Assembly (NCBI RefSeq): GCF_000002985.6
Contig: NC_003281.10
Location: 6,138,001 to 6,202,000 of the forward strand
Reading direction: 5' to 3'
Source of the DNA: Caenorhabditis elegans
Lineage: Eukaryota > Nematoda > Chromadorea > Rhabditida > Rhabditidae
Length of the DNA: 64,000 bases
In this document: piece by piece, positions 4,123 through 20,950 of the stretch
How the letters are laid out: each line of letters starts with the position of its first letter
How positions within the stretch are numbered: position 1 is the first letter of the stretch
Translations under genes and position numbers: made by a program
The notes under the pieces: generated by a model
Seen by the model: the letters and a program-made list of their open reading frames with translations, nothing else
Databases searched by the model: none
What the model was told of the DNA's origin: nothing

Positions 4123-7100
4123 TTATGATCTGCGCTTGACGCGAACGTAGAGTGCCATGAATGCGAGGAATCGAAAGACGAAGATCATAAACGCCATAAC
4201 CGAAATATCAACCCAGAAGTTTGATGGTTTGAAGCTCATCGAATTTAGAACATCCGTTCCATTCCGAGAGCAATGGGCGAGGGAAGATGAACAGCCTGAA
4301 ACTTAATAAAACGTGTGAGATTTTTTCAGATAACCCTACCTGGAATCTCCTCAACATGAGTCCACTGTGCGATTGCTACTGCTTCGTATCCATATCCAAA
4401 ATATGACAAATACTTCATTGGAACAAAATACCACTGAAGTGTGTCTTGATTGATGAAGAATCCTCCAAAAGCCATCATCGGTACGACGAAGATCGGCATA
4501 ACAGCCACCGCCAAGTTGACAGTTCCGAAGATGCAACTGAACATGTAACCAATAGAAATTGCAATATTTTGAACAAGGATTCCAACAAGCATGTAGATTA
4601 AAAATGAGTCAATGATCGGCACGAGACCCGACATCCAGTAAAGGATCGAGGTGAAGATCACAGCGGAGACAATGTAGGAGGGAAGCTCGGCAAGATTTTT
4701 TGAGATGAAATATGCACTGACACGATAGAGACGTGAGCTGGTTTCCCGGTAGAACGTATTCATTTCGAGGCAGAAGTGCTGAAATTTGTAATTTGAAATA
4801 TATTTTTAAACAATGTCTCAAACGTACATGAACCACACTGAACTGAAACATAAATGCCATATTTGAAATCATTTGGTACAGCGATCCATTAATATTCATA
4901 ATTTTCTGTTGATCAACGGGACTATTATTTGTGTAAACGAGACCCGTTAAAATCGCAATAATAATGCTTTGAAAGGTCTGAACCTTGAGAAGAGTTGGCT
5001 CACGGAGCACTGTTTTCGATGCTCTCCAAGTGAGTGCACGAATTTGTTGAAAAAATGATGCTCCGAATCTGGGACGTCCGAACGTTGTTGCATATCTTCG
5101 ACGCCAATCCTCACTGAATGCTCGATCTCCTGAAACGATAAACTACAGTAATCCGACATAGGCTCCGCCCACTTACTCTCATCAACTTCTCGACCACTAG
5201 ACTCTTTGAACACAGACTTTCCGAGCTCTGAATATTTGAAAGTAGTGCAAATTTTTCCGATTTGATTTTTCTTCAAAGTCTCTTCTGCTTGATCACGAAT
5301 TGACATTGTCGCAAGATAATGATCCGATGGATTGAAGTTCATTGGAATCGGAAGTTTCATTTCAGACCACATTTTTTCAGCGCCTGATTGGCTTCCGCAA
5401 AAAGCAACGTCGCCATTTACCATCATGTAGATACTGAAAAAAGATATTGTAGATTTATTATGACTGTATTATGAATGAAATGTACTTTATTCTGAAAAGC
5501 CATTATAATAGGTCGAAATTTTGATTTTTTTTTGTTGAAAATTATACTTAAAATAAAATAGTTAAAAACCTATGCTTATCAGAAGATTTTCTTAATTTTG
5601 GAAAACTTTCTAGAAACAAAATTCTGAAAGAGAAGAAAATTTATTTTTAACAATCGATATTAGAAATTTTTCTCATAGTCAGCAATTTGAGAATTCCAGA
5701 AAACTTTTTAAACCAAAATATGGGTTTCAAACTTTTTTAATGTGATTTTTTCTTGATTGTCTTCATTTTTGTTTCCAGTCGAAATTTAAAAAAGTTGCAT
5801 AATTACCTATCAAAAAGCTGAAAAACTTGAGATGATGGCTGATGAATTGTCAGTAGAATTGTCATATTCCTTGTCTCAGCAAGCTTTTTCAGCACACAAA
5901 CTACTTGATATGCTAGAAATGAGTCGAGACCAGATGTTGGCTCATCGCAGATCAAGATCGGTGGAGATGTGAGAATCTGAAATTATAAAATTAGAAAACT
6001 AAAGATTTAACTACGGATAGTATACCTCGCTGGCAAATGCTAGCCGCTTCTTTTCTCCTCCAGAAATTCCCTTTCGTGTGCGAGTTCCGATAATCGAGTC
6101 AGCAATTTTTTCGAGTCCAAGCTGAAAATACGCAACAATAATTTAAAAATTTATTAAAGACTCCTCACACTTCGCATAACACTCTTGACTCTACGCTCCT
6201 GCTCATTCAAATCATATTCGCTTCCCATTTTCAGTTTTGCCATGAATTTTAGATGCTCTTCTACAGTAAGACTTCCAATGAAACAGTCGTCTTGTTGAAC
6301 GTAAGCGCACACTTGACGCATGTAACTTCTCTCGGCACGGATTCCATTGACCTGGAAAACTCTTGATTAATACAAACTTTGCACAATATCTACAGTAAGA
6401 TTCATTTATATTATCAGGAAGTTTTTTTTTTAATTAAGAAAATGATAAGGCTAAAATAATTAGCAAAACCTGAACCACCTACAGTACCCGCCAATTCTAA
6501 TTGGCAGAGGAAACAGATTGAGAAAAAGGTCTGTCTTCTACAGTAGGCAAATGAAAAACAGGAAAAACCACAGTACTACAGAACTTGGGTACTTTCTCAA
6601 TAGCGGAAAACACGTGAATACGAAAACTTTTCAAGGGGGTCAGGTGGCTGCTGATGACAGAAAAAACGAAGAAAAGGTGGATGATGAAGTTGATTATAAT
6701 TTTCCAAATCGCAACATCACAACCGCAATCAGGGGGAAAGACGGAAAAGATGCGAGATTGTAAAAGAAAAATGATGATGAGAGATGACTTGCATTCTGTT
6801 CATTATTGCATAAGCCAGCTGGTCTGCACCAAGTTTTGAAGAACATTGAGAGAACGTTCGATTAGGAGCATTGCTGATGTAAACGGATGGAATGTAATTA
6901 TCATATGTTAAGCTATTGTTTAAGTCAAACAATTTGAAGAACAAGCTAATCGAACATTTGTAATATGCAAAGGATTCTCGAAGTACATGATAAACAATGC
7001 ATCAAGTGACTTAGAACCTTCTGATTTCTATTTCCAGATGTTATTGCTCAAACTACAGTCCCAATTATTGTATGATGACAAATAGCTACAAAAGGCCTAC

Positions 7101-12015: not shown

Positions 12016-15000
12016 ATGGACGACAGTCAAGAGTCGAGTTTTTCGGTTTCCAAATATGAAACGTAAGTCGAATAGAGTACGGTATTCGGAAAATCTGAAA
12101 TTTAAATTTTTAGAAATGATGATGGATCTATGGGCCAATTCATTTCAATAAATGTAAGTTAAACTTCCATTAACAGTTTTTCAAAAGTCTGAGAAGGTAG
12201 ATCAATATAATTCATTAGAGCGCATTTGCTCGCCTTGGATCAAAAACTTGGAAATCTATAATAATAATTTGAAGGAATGTGAACGGGAAATTCAAATGTT
12301 AGAACGTGACATTCGTCAACAGAAAGAGTCCAGTGCAAATGCGAAAACAGCGATAACATTCGATCAACTTCGGAAAATTCATACGTACGTTCCGGGCCGT
12401 CCGATCAGTTTTCCCGTCGGCCTCAATAGCTCACACAGGTAAAGCGCCAAGTGTGAAAAATGGCTGAATAGTGGGTGAAGGGGCGCTGGCGGGTGAACGA
12501 TGGGGGAAAAATGGGCGAAGGACCGCAAAAAGACGAAGCAATGGGTGAATAAATTGACCAATCCGAAAATCAAAAAAGAAGTAAAAAAGGAGCATAGCAA
12601 AGTATTTCCGAAGTATTCATGCATAACTAGTATACGTGTTTATGGAAGTGTTTATTGTTAACAATGTTACAATCAATTGATTGTTGTAATGTTCACTTCA
12701 TTTCCGAACATCTACTATTAGAGTCATCTGTTGTTGAATAATGTGAAAAACATTTTGTTACTTTTTTAAGGGTTATATTTATAGAAAAAATACCAATTTG
12801 TTATTTCCCACAAGTTTGGACATTCATATTACATTCTCAGTCGAACAATCACCTATATAAGAGTTGATTGAGCATATAGACGTCTTACTTTAAAAGACTC
12901 ATAACTCTGTTGGCATTTGAATTAATAAAATGTGGCCAACTGAAAAGTTGTTGACAATAATGTGAAAAACATTTTGTTAGTTGGTAACTTTTTGTTATCT
13001 TTAGTGACTGCGGAGATGTGGGCTTCAAAAGATAACCAAAATATTCTAGATTTGTACTTAAATATATCTCAGTTCTCGATAAAGATGAAGAGATACTTAC
13101 AACTATCAATATGTTTATTGTTTTAAACTTAACAACGTTGTAGTTGATAACTTTTTGATATCTTGCCTCTAGAATTAGATACATCCATTTTAATACAGGA
13201 GGTTTTAATTTTCAGAGCTCCAAGGAATGTCGGTTTGACTTATCGAAAGCACCGAACTTAGCAAAAAAACTTATAGAAACAAACAATTCAACATATTTCT
13301 ACAATACCTGATAAAAATTTGATAATTTTTGAAAAAAAATTTTTTTTGATTTTTGAAAAAAAAATCCAAAGGGTCCCCCCTTACAAAATTTTTCAAAATT
13401 TTTTTTTTGGAAACTTTTTATAATATGATTAGATGTTATAGAAAAATCCAATGTTTGTAATTATTTCTAGTTTGTATGTTCTGAACACGATTTCGGACGA
13501 AAACCTGAGGTGTAGTAGAACAACTAAGTTCAAAAAACGCGTTCACTTTGGATGCGTATATCTCCGTGGAAAAATTTTTGATGGCAAAGTGATCAACTAC
13601 AAAGTTGTTTATCTTAATCTGAAGTACAACTTTGTAGTTTATTGTTTCTTGTCAAAAAAATTGTTGGTCGAGATAAAGTTGTGTTCATTTTGGCAACTTC
13701 ATGCTTGAATTTTCTTCTTCTTTTTCTATTCCTGTCTCAATCAACAATTTTTTTGACAAGAAACAATAAACTACAAAGTTGTACTTCAGATTAAGATGAA
13801 CAACTTTGTAGTTGATCACTTTGCCATCAAAAATTTTTCCACGGAGATATACGCATCCAAAGTGAACGCGTTTTTTGAACTTAGTTGTTCTACTACACCT
13901 CAGGTCTTCTTCCGAAATCGTGTTCAGAACATACAAACTAGAAATAATTACAAACATTGCATTTTTCTATAGCATCTAATCATATTATAAAAAGTTTCCA
14001 AAAACTTTTTTTTTCAACAATTTTTTTTCAACAATTTTCATCATAAGGGGGGACCCTTATGATCAAAGTAATGATTTATCAAATTGGATGAAGAGGGTCA
14101 TATTTAGAATTTTTATCGAAATTTCATTCGAAACTCTTAAAGTTGAAACGGAAATATCTTACTTAGTACTATTCGATCTATTTTTCAGCGTTTCAATGCG
14201 TTTTTTAACACCAATAAATCATTTCAATTCAACGCTTACTCTCATTATGAGTTTCATAGCAACGACACTCCGAAATAACCCTAGCGCGCCCTCTTTAGCG
14301 AAAATTTTATTCAATTTTTTTTTGCTTTTTTTGCAATTTTTCTCGTTTTTTTTCACGATTACCGCTAATTTTGCGTGATTTTGTGAGCAACATATTTTTC
14401 TTTTTCACATTTTTATAATTTGCAGATAAAAATCGAGAAAATCAACGAAAAGGATCCTTCAAAACGACGGAATAGGAAAAAGATGCCAAAAATCAGGTAT
14501 TTTCAGAAATATTGAGAAACTCTGCGTCTATTCTTCTGTTAACTAATTATAATTGGTTTCTTATTCGAAAAATATAAATTTTTGTCACGAAAAAAAGCGA
14601 GAAATAATCTTCGAATTCAGATATTTCGTCCCGACGCAACTTCGCCGGCTTCGACGAGGAATCCTGCAGCGAGGGACACGATTATGAGCTGTTAAAGTGA
14701 GTTTTAAAGTTTTAAAATGTATTCTCCCGAAAGAAAAATCGTCAAACTAACTCTAAAGCATGATAATTTTTACAGGAGTGTCGCCGGCACCGACTCCGAA
14801 CGAGAAAAGCTCCGACGACCGCAAACGAGAGCCGAAGGAATCTGGAAAGCGAAGGTAATATTTTATTTTCAAATATCGATACTTGTTTCTAACGAGCGAA
14901 AATGTATAATGTAATGTAATAATGATTAATCTTCTTTATTAAACTTCTTTAAAATTAATCATTTGAATTTTTCAGAAAATGGATCGATAAAATCGCTTAC

Positions 15001-16733
15001 TGGAGGAAGACAAAAGGAAGAAAAGCGGAAACGAGTCAATTGCCGATGACACCAGAGGACGATTCATCGAAATCATCAAAAGATGAAATAAATTATTTTG
15101 TTTTTTTTTCGATTTAAAATAAACGATAATACTATAATATACTCGTTTTATGAATATTATTCTTCACTGAAAAGCAAAAGGAGGGGAATGGAAACGATAG
15201 CCTTCACCCATCGCTCACCCATCGCTCACCCATTAGCGAGCCGCTAACATGCGAACGGCGGCCCACCGGTGTGCGCGCTGTTCGTGTGTCGGCGGTTCCC
15301 CCCTCGCCTATATGCGGTCCCCCCTCGCCTATATGCGGTCCCCCCTCGCCTATATGCGGTCCACCGGTGGGCCGCCGCTCGCACTTGGCGCTTTACCTGT
15401 GCAGTTGGGAGAGCGTACGACTGAAGATCGTAAGGTCACCAGTTCGATCCTGGTTTGGGGCAATCTATTTTTACTTTTTTGGTATTCTTATATAAACTTG
15501 GTAATTTTAAGACTCTCTACATTGCTTGGACCACACAAAGAGCTATTCTTTGATAGGATATGTCGGGCAGCCGATATACAAAGGGCATCTTTGAAAAATC
15601 GTTTGAAATCAAATATAAATGTAGGATATTTTTTAAATTCAATTTTCCAATATTTTTGACTAATAGTAAGATTGCAATTTTCCAGAAATTCGAGCCCAGC
15701 ACACCTCTGTCGTTTCAACCGGGATTCGATTCTCAGAGCTCTCTTTCAACGACTTCAGAGAGCCAAAATTTTGTGGTGACCCCAACAACTCTTAGCAGTT
15801 TATTGAACAATCACACAGTAAGTTTTTATGAGATTGTCGTAGTAGGTAGGCCCGTGCCCATATTATCATAACAAGTCTACCTGACCTACCTGACTATTAC
15901 ACATTTTCTGCATTTTGAGGCCACTTTAGATGATAACTTTAGATGTAGATGTAAACCTTTAGATGTAAACCAACTGAGATAATAACAAATAAGTAGGTCT
16001 TGTAGTGTAGCAGTAGGTAGGCACAAGGAAGGTATTATATGCCTACGTCGATGTTATACTGGTTTAATTATCAAATCTTTTAATTTTCAATAAATAATTT
16101 AAGCGGAAGAATCACATTGAAATGCTGGCTCCACTAGCGTCCGAAGAGGAGTTGATGAGATTTCCTGCGGAACGACAGTTTGATCTAATGCAAATTGGAT
16201 TTAGTTACGATGAAGTGAAGCAGTTGCTGGAAATGTTTGAAAAATTCAAGAATGACGTTCAAGAGATTAACAGGCTTCATACATTGACACAGGTGAGGAA
16301 TAACGGTTACTGCAGAGAAACGAGAGTGTATGTATTCTTTGGATTTGGTTGAAGGCACCTAATTCAGATTCTCTGGATTAATTGTTCCTAAAAAATATTT
16401 TTGAGATCCTGAATCAATTTTGCAACTACATCTCAATGTACGCACCACCCAATCTGAAAATGATATCATCGGCGTTCAATTTGCTAGAACTTGGAAACTC
16501 AGCTCATGAAGTGAAAAGGGTTTTACTGAAAGCGGTAATCTAAATATTCCATCAAAAAATATAACTAAATGAAATTTTTATAGCGTCGTCGTGAAGAATC
16601 AGAAGAATCAGATGTTTCATTTTCCAAAAAGCCACGTCCTTCTTCTAGATCTCCTGCATCTCCAAATCGAGATGATCTATTGTTGGGACTCGATCGTTCT
16701 CCGCCCAGCGATGATGGAACTCAGAAAGTTTGA
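12016..16733 (+). CDS. Unrecognised coiled-coil protein; third intron interrupted by a mobile element
   Basis: Seven exons (12016-12062, 12114-12153, 12188-12388, 15686-15817, 16104-16292, 16406-16534, 16584-16733) keep one reading frame and give 295 aa. Residues about 45-85 look like a coiled coil (NLKECEREIQMLERDIRQQ), and a second charged helical region follows around residues 160-190. The C-terminus is Ser/Pro-rich with a basic KKPRPSSRSP stretch that could be a nuclear localisation signal. I do not recognise the family. Intron 3 (12389-15685) contains a tRNA-Phe gene disrupted by a 3-kb element; splicing across the whole insertion keeps phase 0. Exon 3's acceptor (TCAAAAG) is weak and could be misplaced. 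Annotated isoforms might also use exon-like segments inside the element. Confidence 0.65.
12420..12433 (+). pseudogene. 5' part of a disrupted tRNA-Phe gene
   Basis: GCCTCAATAGCTCA matches the 5' end of tRNA-Phe: the 5' acceptor strand plus the start of the D arm. The rest of the tRNA is at 15402-15462. Base 6 (A, where the usual worm tRNA-Phe has G, as I recall it) pairs with a T in the distant 3' half, so the acceptor stem would be fully paired if the halves were contiguous. Confidence 0.9.
12434..12453 (+). repeat. Left terminal inverted repeat of the element
   Basis: A 20-bp sequence identical to the reverse complement of 15382-15401, immediately after the 5' tRNA-Phe fragment. Confidence 0.95.
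13371..14057. repeat. Large foldback (about 300-bp inverted arms) inside the element
   Basis: The left arm runs from the GGGTCCCCCC block at 13371 to about 13663. The right arm runs from about 13742 to the GGGGGGACCC block at 14047-14057. A loop of about 75 bp lies between them. The arms are nearly identical and differ by a few substitutions, so both strands read almost the same 60-residue frame. It may be a second transposon nested in the outer element. Confidence 0.93.
14426..15106 (+). other. Exon-like segments inside the element, unresolved
   Basis: Segments bounded by good splice sites occur at about 14426-14496, 14622-14698, 14777-14854 and from about 14975. One frame of the last two reads a Lys/Glu/Ser-rich peptide containing KWIDKIAYWRKTKG, but no single frame joins all four without a stop. 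They could be a captured gene fragment, alternative exons of the surrounding gene, or chance. Confidence 0.3.
15297..15361 (+). repeat. 21-bp tandem repeat, three copies
   Basis: Three head-to-tail copies of a 21-bp unit containing CTCGCCTATATGCGG, just inside the right end of the element. Confidence 0.95.
15382..15401 (-). repeat. Right terminal inverted repeat of the element
   Basis: A perfect reverse complement of 12434-12453, immediately before the 3' tRNA-Phe fragment. Confidence 0.95.
15402..15462 (+). pseudogene. 3' part of a disrupted tRNA-Phe (GAA) gene
   Basis: Starts CAGTTGGGAGAGCG and contains the rest of the D arm, an anticodon arm with anticodon GAA (ACTGAAGAT), the variable loop, the T arm (AGTTCGATCCT) and the 3' acceptor strand ending GGGGC plus A. 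The 5' acceptor strand lies 3 kb upstream at 12420. Every part of a tRNA-Phe is present across the two fragments, with only CA repeated. Confidence 0.92.
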
Positions 16734-19728: not shown

Positions 19729-20777
19729 GACGAGGTATAAATAAGAGATTAAACGACACTGAAAATATTTTAATTTTTTTGAGTCCAAATTTTTGAAAAA
19801 AAAAATCAGAAATATAACAAGGAAACAAAGCACTTTTAAAAGTCTATGTATATCTCTATTTTCTTCCGCTTTTCACATGTTTGTTTTTCCCTCAAAATCT
19901 CCAAAATTCTTAAGTTTACTCCTTTTTTCCAGAAAAACTCTAATATTTAAGTGATAACACCCACGCAGAGTGCAATTAAATATCGATACAACAATTCATT
20001 ATCATCATCAAATAACAAACAATTAACAAATGAGGCATCGACACTCTCGAAGTAGCACAAAAATTGAGTGAGGTGGCTCTTGCACAGAGAGCGAGAGCAT
20101 AAGTGTGTGCTCTGGCTCCGCCTATTTTTTCGGAGCTCTGGGAGAGAAGGATAGAGAGAGAGAGAGGGAAGAAGGGATTTCCCGAGGCTCCCGGCAGGAA
20201 GTGTTGGGAGCCAGACAGTGGGAGCAGGCACAGAGTACGAAGAGCAAAGTGGAAAGATGGGAAACAACAAATTATGTTATGAGGAAGTTTTTTGGCAGAT
20301 TGGTTATGAAACTTTGCAGAACTTTAATGCGTTACTGTAAATTTAAGGGAAAGTAGGTTCCATCGAGCGTACTTACGAAAATTGTACTGTAGCTCACTAT
20401 CAGTACACTGTACTTTCGAAACATTTTTCTGGATTTCATCTTTCTGGAATTTTTGAATTTTCAATATGGAAAAAATGTACTTAAACTTCATTCGAAAATT
20501 ATATGACTTCAAAGGAATAGGGAGGTTAATCGAAAAGTTACTGAAGTTTTCGAATTTTTGTTGGCCATTTTGCTTACACAAGTGCGCCCCACTTCACACT
20601 GATGTCTCTTTTGAAAATATAATAATAAGTCAATCGAAAAATACCGATTGTGTGAATTTTTCTATACTGTCCCTATTCCCCCTTTCATCTCCCCCCATTG
20701 ACCACTTCTCCCCATCCCCTCCTCCTATTATGCGTAACACCCGGCATGTCTAGGCCACGAAAGTTGTGGTTCGTCGT
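19729..20777. other. Gene-free stretch upstream of the methyltransferase gene
   Basis: No supported protein gene. It contains an AG-rich simple stretch near 20150-20170 and pyrimidine-rich DNA at 20660-20730 just before the first tRNA-Ser. It probably includes the methyltransferase promoter. Confidence 0.5.
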
Positions 20778-20859
20778 GCAGTCATGTCCGAGTGGTTAAG
20801 GAGATTGACTAGAAATCAATTGGGCTCTGCCCGCGTAGGTTCGAATCCTGCTGACTGCG
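20778..20859 (+). tRNA. tRNA-Ser (anticodon AGA)
   Basis: An 82-nt class II tRNA. The acceptor stem GCAGTCA pairs with TGACTGC near the 3' end, discriminator G. D arm GTCCGAGTGGTTAAGGA, anticodon arm TTGACTAGAAATCAA with AGA, long variable arm TGGGCTCTGCCC, and T arm GTAGGTTCGAATCCTGC. A T-rich run follows (TTAAATTTTTTTC), as expected of a Pol III terminator. All stems pair, so it should be functional. Confidence 0.96.
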
Positions 20860-20950
20860 TTAAATTTTTTTCAATTTTTTCGCACATTTTTTTCGTTGTA
20901 ACTTCGAAATTGTACAAAATGAAAATATACTTGATAATAAACCAAAACGT

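Follow-up and report, generated by a model that had tools for sequence, protein, structure and literature searches.

A transposon-split tRNA-Phe gene in Caenorhabditis elegans and a clan of related elements found at tRNA genes

A tRNA-Phe gene split by a transposon

The stretch of DNA analyzed here, referred to as the window, comprises 64,000 nucleotides of the Caenorhabditis elegans genome (C3:6138001-6202000, within a searched genome of 100,286,401 bases in 7 contigs). In this window a transfer RNA (tRNA) gene, tRNA-Phe(GAA), is split by the insertion of a 2,968-bp DNA transposon (12434-15401). The 5' piece of the gene, tRNA positions 1-14, is located at 12420-12433 and the 3' piece, tRNA positions 13-73, at 15402-15462, both on the plus strand; their assignment is based on the sequence itself, on an ARAGORN call for the joined flanks and on paralogues. 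Positions 13-14, which occur in both pieces, are the dinucleotide CA and constitute a 2-bp target-site duplication (12432-12433 and 15402-15403, plus strand). The element is non-autonomous and is bordered by a left terminal inverted repeat, CACAGGTAAAGCGCCAAGTG, at 12434-12453 (plus strand) and its counterpart at 15382-15401 (minus strand), which match perfectly over 20 bp and at 96% over 23 nt. The split gene is one of many hits by related elements, and we consider it highly probable that these elements form a clan of DNA transposons that targets tRNA genes.

When the flanks are joined minus one CA, they read as an intact 73-nt tRNA-Phe(GAA) that is accepted by ARAGORN, a gene overlooked in an ARAGORN run on the whole window. 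In line with insertion into a once-contiguous gene, an uninterrupted copy identical to the joined 73 nt is found on another chromosome (C6:5319385-5319457). An earlier note on this stretch, made from its sequence alone, had described the two pieces of the gene, the inverted ends of the insert, CA at both junctions and an element without recognizable transposase, all of which were found again here, and its proposal of a transposon insertion agrees with the intact copy. Thirteen of the 17 listed matches to the joined gene are full-length (one at 100%, 10 at 97% and two at 95% identity). Among the three of these 13 that were compared over their full sequence (L117, L118 and L119), one is identical to the joined gene, one 97% copy differs solely at positions 6 and 67, where it has G-C for A-T, and one 95% copy differs at this same pair and at two further bases. 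The A-T acceptor pair is thus as the earlier note had described it. Its further suggestion, that the A6-T67 pair reveals selection on the tRNA at this locus, was dropped, because the intact paralogue carries the same pair, which alone is then no proof of selection at this site.

Both the tRNA gene and the element lie within a candidate intron of a protein gene (12385-15556, plus strand). The flanking candidate exons join in phase, as the earlier note had also seen, and, together with the next exon, give a single open frame of 120 codons; exon borders were placed by eye and no transcript was seen. A Pfam search with part of this host protein identified no family.

Related elements and their landing sites

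The ends of the window element, read in the earlier note as those of a mobile element, recur genome-wide as element termini. The 20-bp end has 10 exact matches; if up to three mismatches are allowed, the number rises to 50, which includes the exact matches and a look-alike family. The 13-mer end CACAGGTAAA(G/C)CG, equivalent to CACAGGTAAASCG, occurs 78 times in the genome, compared with six occurrences of a reversed control pattern. Pairing of opposite ends less than 9 kb apart yielded 25 elements from these 78 ends and left 28 ends single; a 26th element (C6:8409554-8412765) consists of one single end and an end with a one-base difference. The 26 paired elements are 543 to 6,698 bp long. Based on their ends, subfamilies were assigned by eye: three elements belong to subfamily A, which is that of the window, 12 to subfamily B, four to subfamily C and two to two further types, and five pairs, known from 15 bp of each end, are unclassed. 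At C1:12755295 (L057, around position 1531), two element ends are arranged in tandem, 11 bp apart.

An exact 2-bp duplication, represented by 11 different dinucleotides, flanks 21 of the 26 elements (mispaired ends, 44/650), and three further elements have a 3-bp duplication, TTC, ATG or TTA (mispaired ends, 9/650). Duplications of 4 to 9 bp were found in 0/26 elements at each length, and two elements are without any duplication.

With default settings, ARAGORN calls a tRNA across the junction of the joined flanks for 10 of the 26 elements, representing the isotypes Asn, Ala, Phe, Arg, Val, Thr, Ile, Gly, Pro and Leu, whereas 0/1,040 dinucleotide shuffles and 3/945 random window stretches gave such a call. 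Additionally, the sites were screened for the boxes of RNA polymerase III (Pol III) genes, a site passing this box test if it contains either an A box without mismatch or a B box with no more than one. Twenty-one of the 26 paired sites pass, versus 30 of 1,911 random 138-nt window stretches. Taken by itself, one split tRNA gene in the window would most naturally be read as the lone accident of an ordinary transposon that struck a tRNA gene once, but the genome-wide counts for ARAGORN calls and boxes leave this explanation with a negligible probability, and it was dropped.

Empty sites were confirmed by uninterrupted paralogues in all three cases searched. Besides the tRNA-Phe gene, these are a tRNA-Thr gene, for which the joined site has 15 uninterrupted full-length copies at 100% identity, and a dispersed tRNA-like repeat (C3:55365-58931), for which 35 of 40 listed matches are full-length at 88-100% identity. 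This repeat, which has a tRNA-like head and may be derived from a tRNA, has been struck several times by clan elements, at C3:55365-58931 and in paralogues.

Several observations weigh against tRNA genes as the general target. The thresholds of the box test were fixed after the flanks had been read. Mispaired flanks give a tRNA by ARAGORN in 53/650 cases, so this control is not independent; such calls would be expected if cuts are often made in one common region of the gene. No default ARAGORN call is obtained at 16 of the 26 joined sites, and the box test is failed at five of the 26 paired sites. One of the elements, C4:1462948-1463839, lacks both a duplication and a box. Many targets are degenerate, and decay and old targets are consequently mixed in. 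For single-ended sites the signal is lower, with 7/27 passing the box test (random 70-nt stretches, 20/1,911). Several of the failing single ends resemble chance 13-mers or another small family, and others appear tRNA-like by eye; some of these ends are best explained as chance matches, another family or eroded copies, and true ends may in some cases be situated outside tRNA genes.

Two other families in the same genome help to judge how far the ends predict the target. The CACAGGCAAAGCGG-ended family agrees with the clan at 12 of the first 13 end bases, and the counts imply 45 of its CACAGGCAAA(G/C)CG ends. It differs in its duplications, which are of 3 bp at three of the four sites checked (L027, L033, L034 and L063/L075) and read 4 bp, CTGC, at the fourth, and tRNA boxes are present in 0 of the 10 flanks tested. 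Another small family starts with CACAGGTAAAGCGGGA (L120 and L125); both of its flanks fail the box test, indicating that more than the 13-mer end is needed to determine the target. At C5:12373143-12376995 two ends of look-alike type enclose a paired element of the tRNA-targeting clan, with tRNA-like flanks; it looks as though a look-alike element had carried a tRNA-like sequence and this sequence had later been hit.

The look-alikes also bear on the idea that insertion is random and that copies elsewhere have been purged. Redundant tRNA genes tolerate loss, as illustrated by the 15 intact identical copies of tRNA-Thr. Persistence of the CACAGGCAAAGCGG-ended elements at box-free sites, on the other hand, indicates that sites outside tRNA genes are not generally purged, and we regard such survivorship as very unlikely to account for the pattern.

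Landing positions were mapped for 22 of the 26 elements; they range from about tRNA position −1 to 45 and precede the B box, with an uncertainty of several bases in some cases. Two of the 26 elements gave no tRNA mapping, and among the 24 that could be mapped, C1:13220124-13225680 and C4:1462948-1463839 were left out of this range (both boxes poor). Subfamily B alone covers positions from 3-4 to about 44. Alignment of 18 sites with 2-bp duplications revealed no strong consensus at the cut site, apart from a weak preference for G at two places, the third base before the duplication and the base immediately following it (12/18 each).

Repeated insertion into various tRNA genes, in their front half, suggests that the elements are aimed and do not land by chance. 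As far as sequence can establish it, the clan is characterized by shared ends, recurrent landing in many isotypes, a short and variable duplication and a landing zone of about −1 to 45. One way to aim would be direct recognition, in which the transposase reads a conserved sequence of the tRNA gene such as the A box, as is thought for Dada transposons. This is consistent with the A box being common near the sites and with the weak G preference, but it fits poorly with landing points that vary across the zone even within subfamily B and with 11 forms of the duplicated dinucleotide, and we view it as a possible but doubtful alternative. Variable position and weak consensus would be unusual for a site-specific enzyme and fit better with guidance by a feature that tRNA genes share.

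Known systems and a candidate transposase gene

According to the portions available of two reports (PMC3706591, PMC8869645), Dada elements are DNA transposons that reside within tRNA and small nuclear RNA genes at set sites, with 6-7-bp duplications, and Dada-tV and some other Dada families strike several isotypes. The clan resembles Dada in inserting inside tRNA genes, frequently in the vicinity of the A box, and in an isotype choice that is not always strict; more generally, it shares the Dada trait of insertion inside multicopy small RNA genes. These likenesses would be explained if the clan belonged to the Dada superfamily. However, 6-bp and 7-bp duplications are each found in 0/26 elements, and where Dada has a set site per family, both landing position and dinucleotide vary within a single subfamily of the clan. 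Membership was rejected on these two grounds and is considered extremely improbable. Pfam yields no transposase match in the gene of the 6.7-kb element described below, for which no Dada reference protein was compared.

A better fit is offered by the CACTA-Mirage-Chapaev group (CMC or CMCT, comprising CACTA/EnSpm, Mirage, Chapaev, Transib and kin), for which the part of PMC12730594 available gives termini that are mostly CA..TG and duplications of 2-5 bp. Clan termini read CAC..GTG and, in longer form, CACAGG..CCTGTG; the latter are set by the construction of the search, the inverted ends being flanked by short duplications in 24/26 elements. The 2-5-bp range covers both the 2-bp (21/26) and the 3-bp (3/26) duplications of the clan. 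Termini and duplication size of the clan fit this group. Differences are also apparent: the 3-bp duplication of strict CACTA/EnSpm elements is seen in only 3/26 elements, the clan gene has no Pfam match where CMC/CMCT elements have a tnp2-type transposase, and targeting of tRNA genes is not mentioned for CMC/CMCT in the available part of PMC12730594. The N2 strain holds 1,679 CMC copies, and the term tRNA is absent from the main text, as available, of the report concerned (PMC12239620).

Subterminal repeats, typical of CACTA elements, occur in the clan as well. In the window element, three subterminal direct repeats with 21-bp spacing are located at 15297-15365 (plus strand), beside an inverted pair (15250-15271/15362-15383). 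The same element contains two possible exons of a reading frame at 14776-15116 (plus strand; borders by eye), without a Pfam match. It also contains an internal palindrome at 13385-14023 with 289-nt arms that are 94% complementary and a 61-nt spacer. The subfamily B copies L042, L043 and L049 contain similar sequence, and the palindrome could represent an element of its own, nested in the larger one. Approximately 5 kb downstream of the split tRNA gene, at 20777-20860, lies an intact gene for tRNA-Ser(AGA).

The longest element of the clan, C2:2018651-2025348 (L045/L059; 6,698 bp), has B-type ends and a GT duplication. Its flank is A-box-like with one mismatch, and the site fails the box test. 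It carries a multi-exon transposase-like gene with open exons that have paralogues elsewhere in the genome, at C1:2651177-2651449 (67% identity) and C2:2277791-2278063 (42%) and, for a further exon, at C2:2277287-2277469 (43%) and C4:5961977-5962174 (41%, one internal stop). A CMC/CMCT transposase is a DDE enzyme with C(2)C and H(3-4)H motifs. The stretches NTDG, WPVFLAPND and DGYDGLH resemble motifs of the CACTA-type catalytic region; the group of the gene is a lead and not a result. Apart from a Cyclin_N match in the 6.7-kb element, Pfam and NCBIfam searches with the transposase-like exons, the element-borne frames and part of the host gene returned only weak matches, below curated cut-offs, and the lack of a convincing model for the transposase-like exons is a further point against the interpretation favored here. 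A genome search for Transposase_21 (PF02992) gave no match, and the controls gave none either, so the search carries no information. On balance, we lean slightly towards a CMC-type transposase for this gene. On the minus strand of the 6.7-kb element (element coordinates 4224-4655), an open frame resembling Cyclin_N is present (Pfam E 1e-12), which overlaps a stretch shared with the subfamily B copy L042 in a DNA alignment and looks like a captured fragment of a host gene.

The available portions of PMC3706591 and PMC8869645 contrast Dada with TRE5-A and Tf1, for which guidance comes from host proteins and insertion occurs in the vicinity of the target. TRE5-A of Dictyostelium is like the clan in its association with tRNA genes and its lack of a fixed site, and is thought to be guided by host proteins; in contrast to the clan, it is a retrotransposon and lands near tRNA genes, whereas the clan lands inside them (PMC3706591, same portion). 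The retroelement structure of TRE and Ty likewise differs from the 20-bp inverted ends and 2-3-bp duplications of the clan, in which no search was aimed at reverse transcriptase. In the literature covered, partly in excerpt, no report of transposons targeting tRNA genes in Caenorhabditis was recognized; Repbase, Dfam and most subscription papers lay outside this search, and a database note may exist.

A possible route to tRNA genes

Guidance by a feature common to tRNA genes, and not by a fixed sequence, is the reading we prefer, and the aim of the clan is probably looser than that of Dada and set by proteins. In the model we propose, a DDE-type transposase would be supplied by full-length relatives such as C2:2018651-2025348, whose gene would encode a transposase of the CACTA-Mirage-Chapaev type. 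This enzyme would bind the CACAGGTAAAGCG-type ends together with the subterminal repeats and excise the element, which would then be inserted where a tRNA gene, or a sequence resembling one, has been cut in its 5' half with a stagger of 2 bp or, in some cases, 3 bp. The simplest guide would be the Pol III factors (TFIIIC, TFIIIB or Pol III itself) or the DNA opened by them, and a tether to such a factor is the likeliest candidate. Each insertion would cost the cell one tRNA gene, a loss that can be borne since identical copies are left.

Retrotransposons are known to use tRNA genes as safe havens, and one superfamily of DNA transposons, Dada, does the same. The interest of the clan is that DNA transposons failing two defining features of Dada insert recurrently into tRNA genes. 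The different duplication size and the variable landing point suggest that this strategy evolved a further time along a different path, and a second, independent origin in a CMC-like lineage that is drawn to the Pol III machinery and enters any tRNA gene at a variable point in its 5' half is, in our judgment, rather probable. If true, the clan would be a DNA-transposon counterpart of Ty/TRE targeting in a standard laboratory animal, and the link to Pol III factors is directly testable in C. elegans. For the worm, the clan would be a repeated source of tRNA gene loss. It would also leave behind split tRNA pseudogenes, which scanning programs can overlook, as ARAGORN did in the window.

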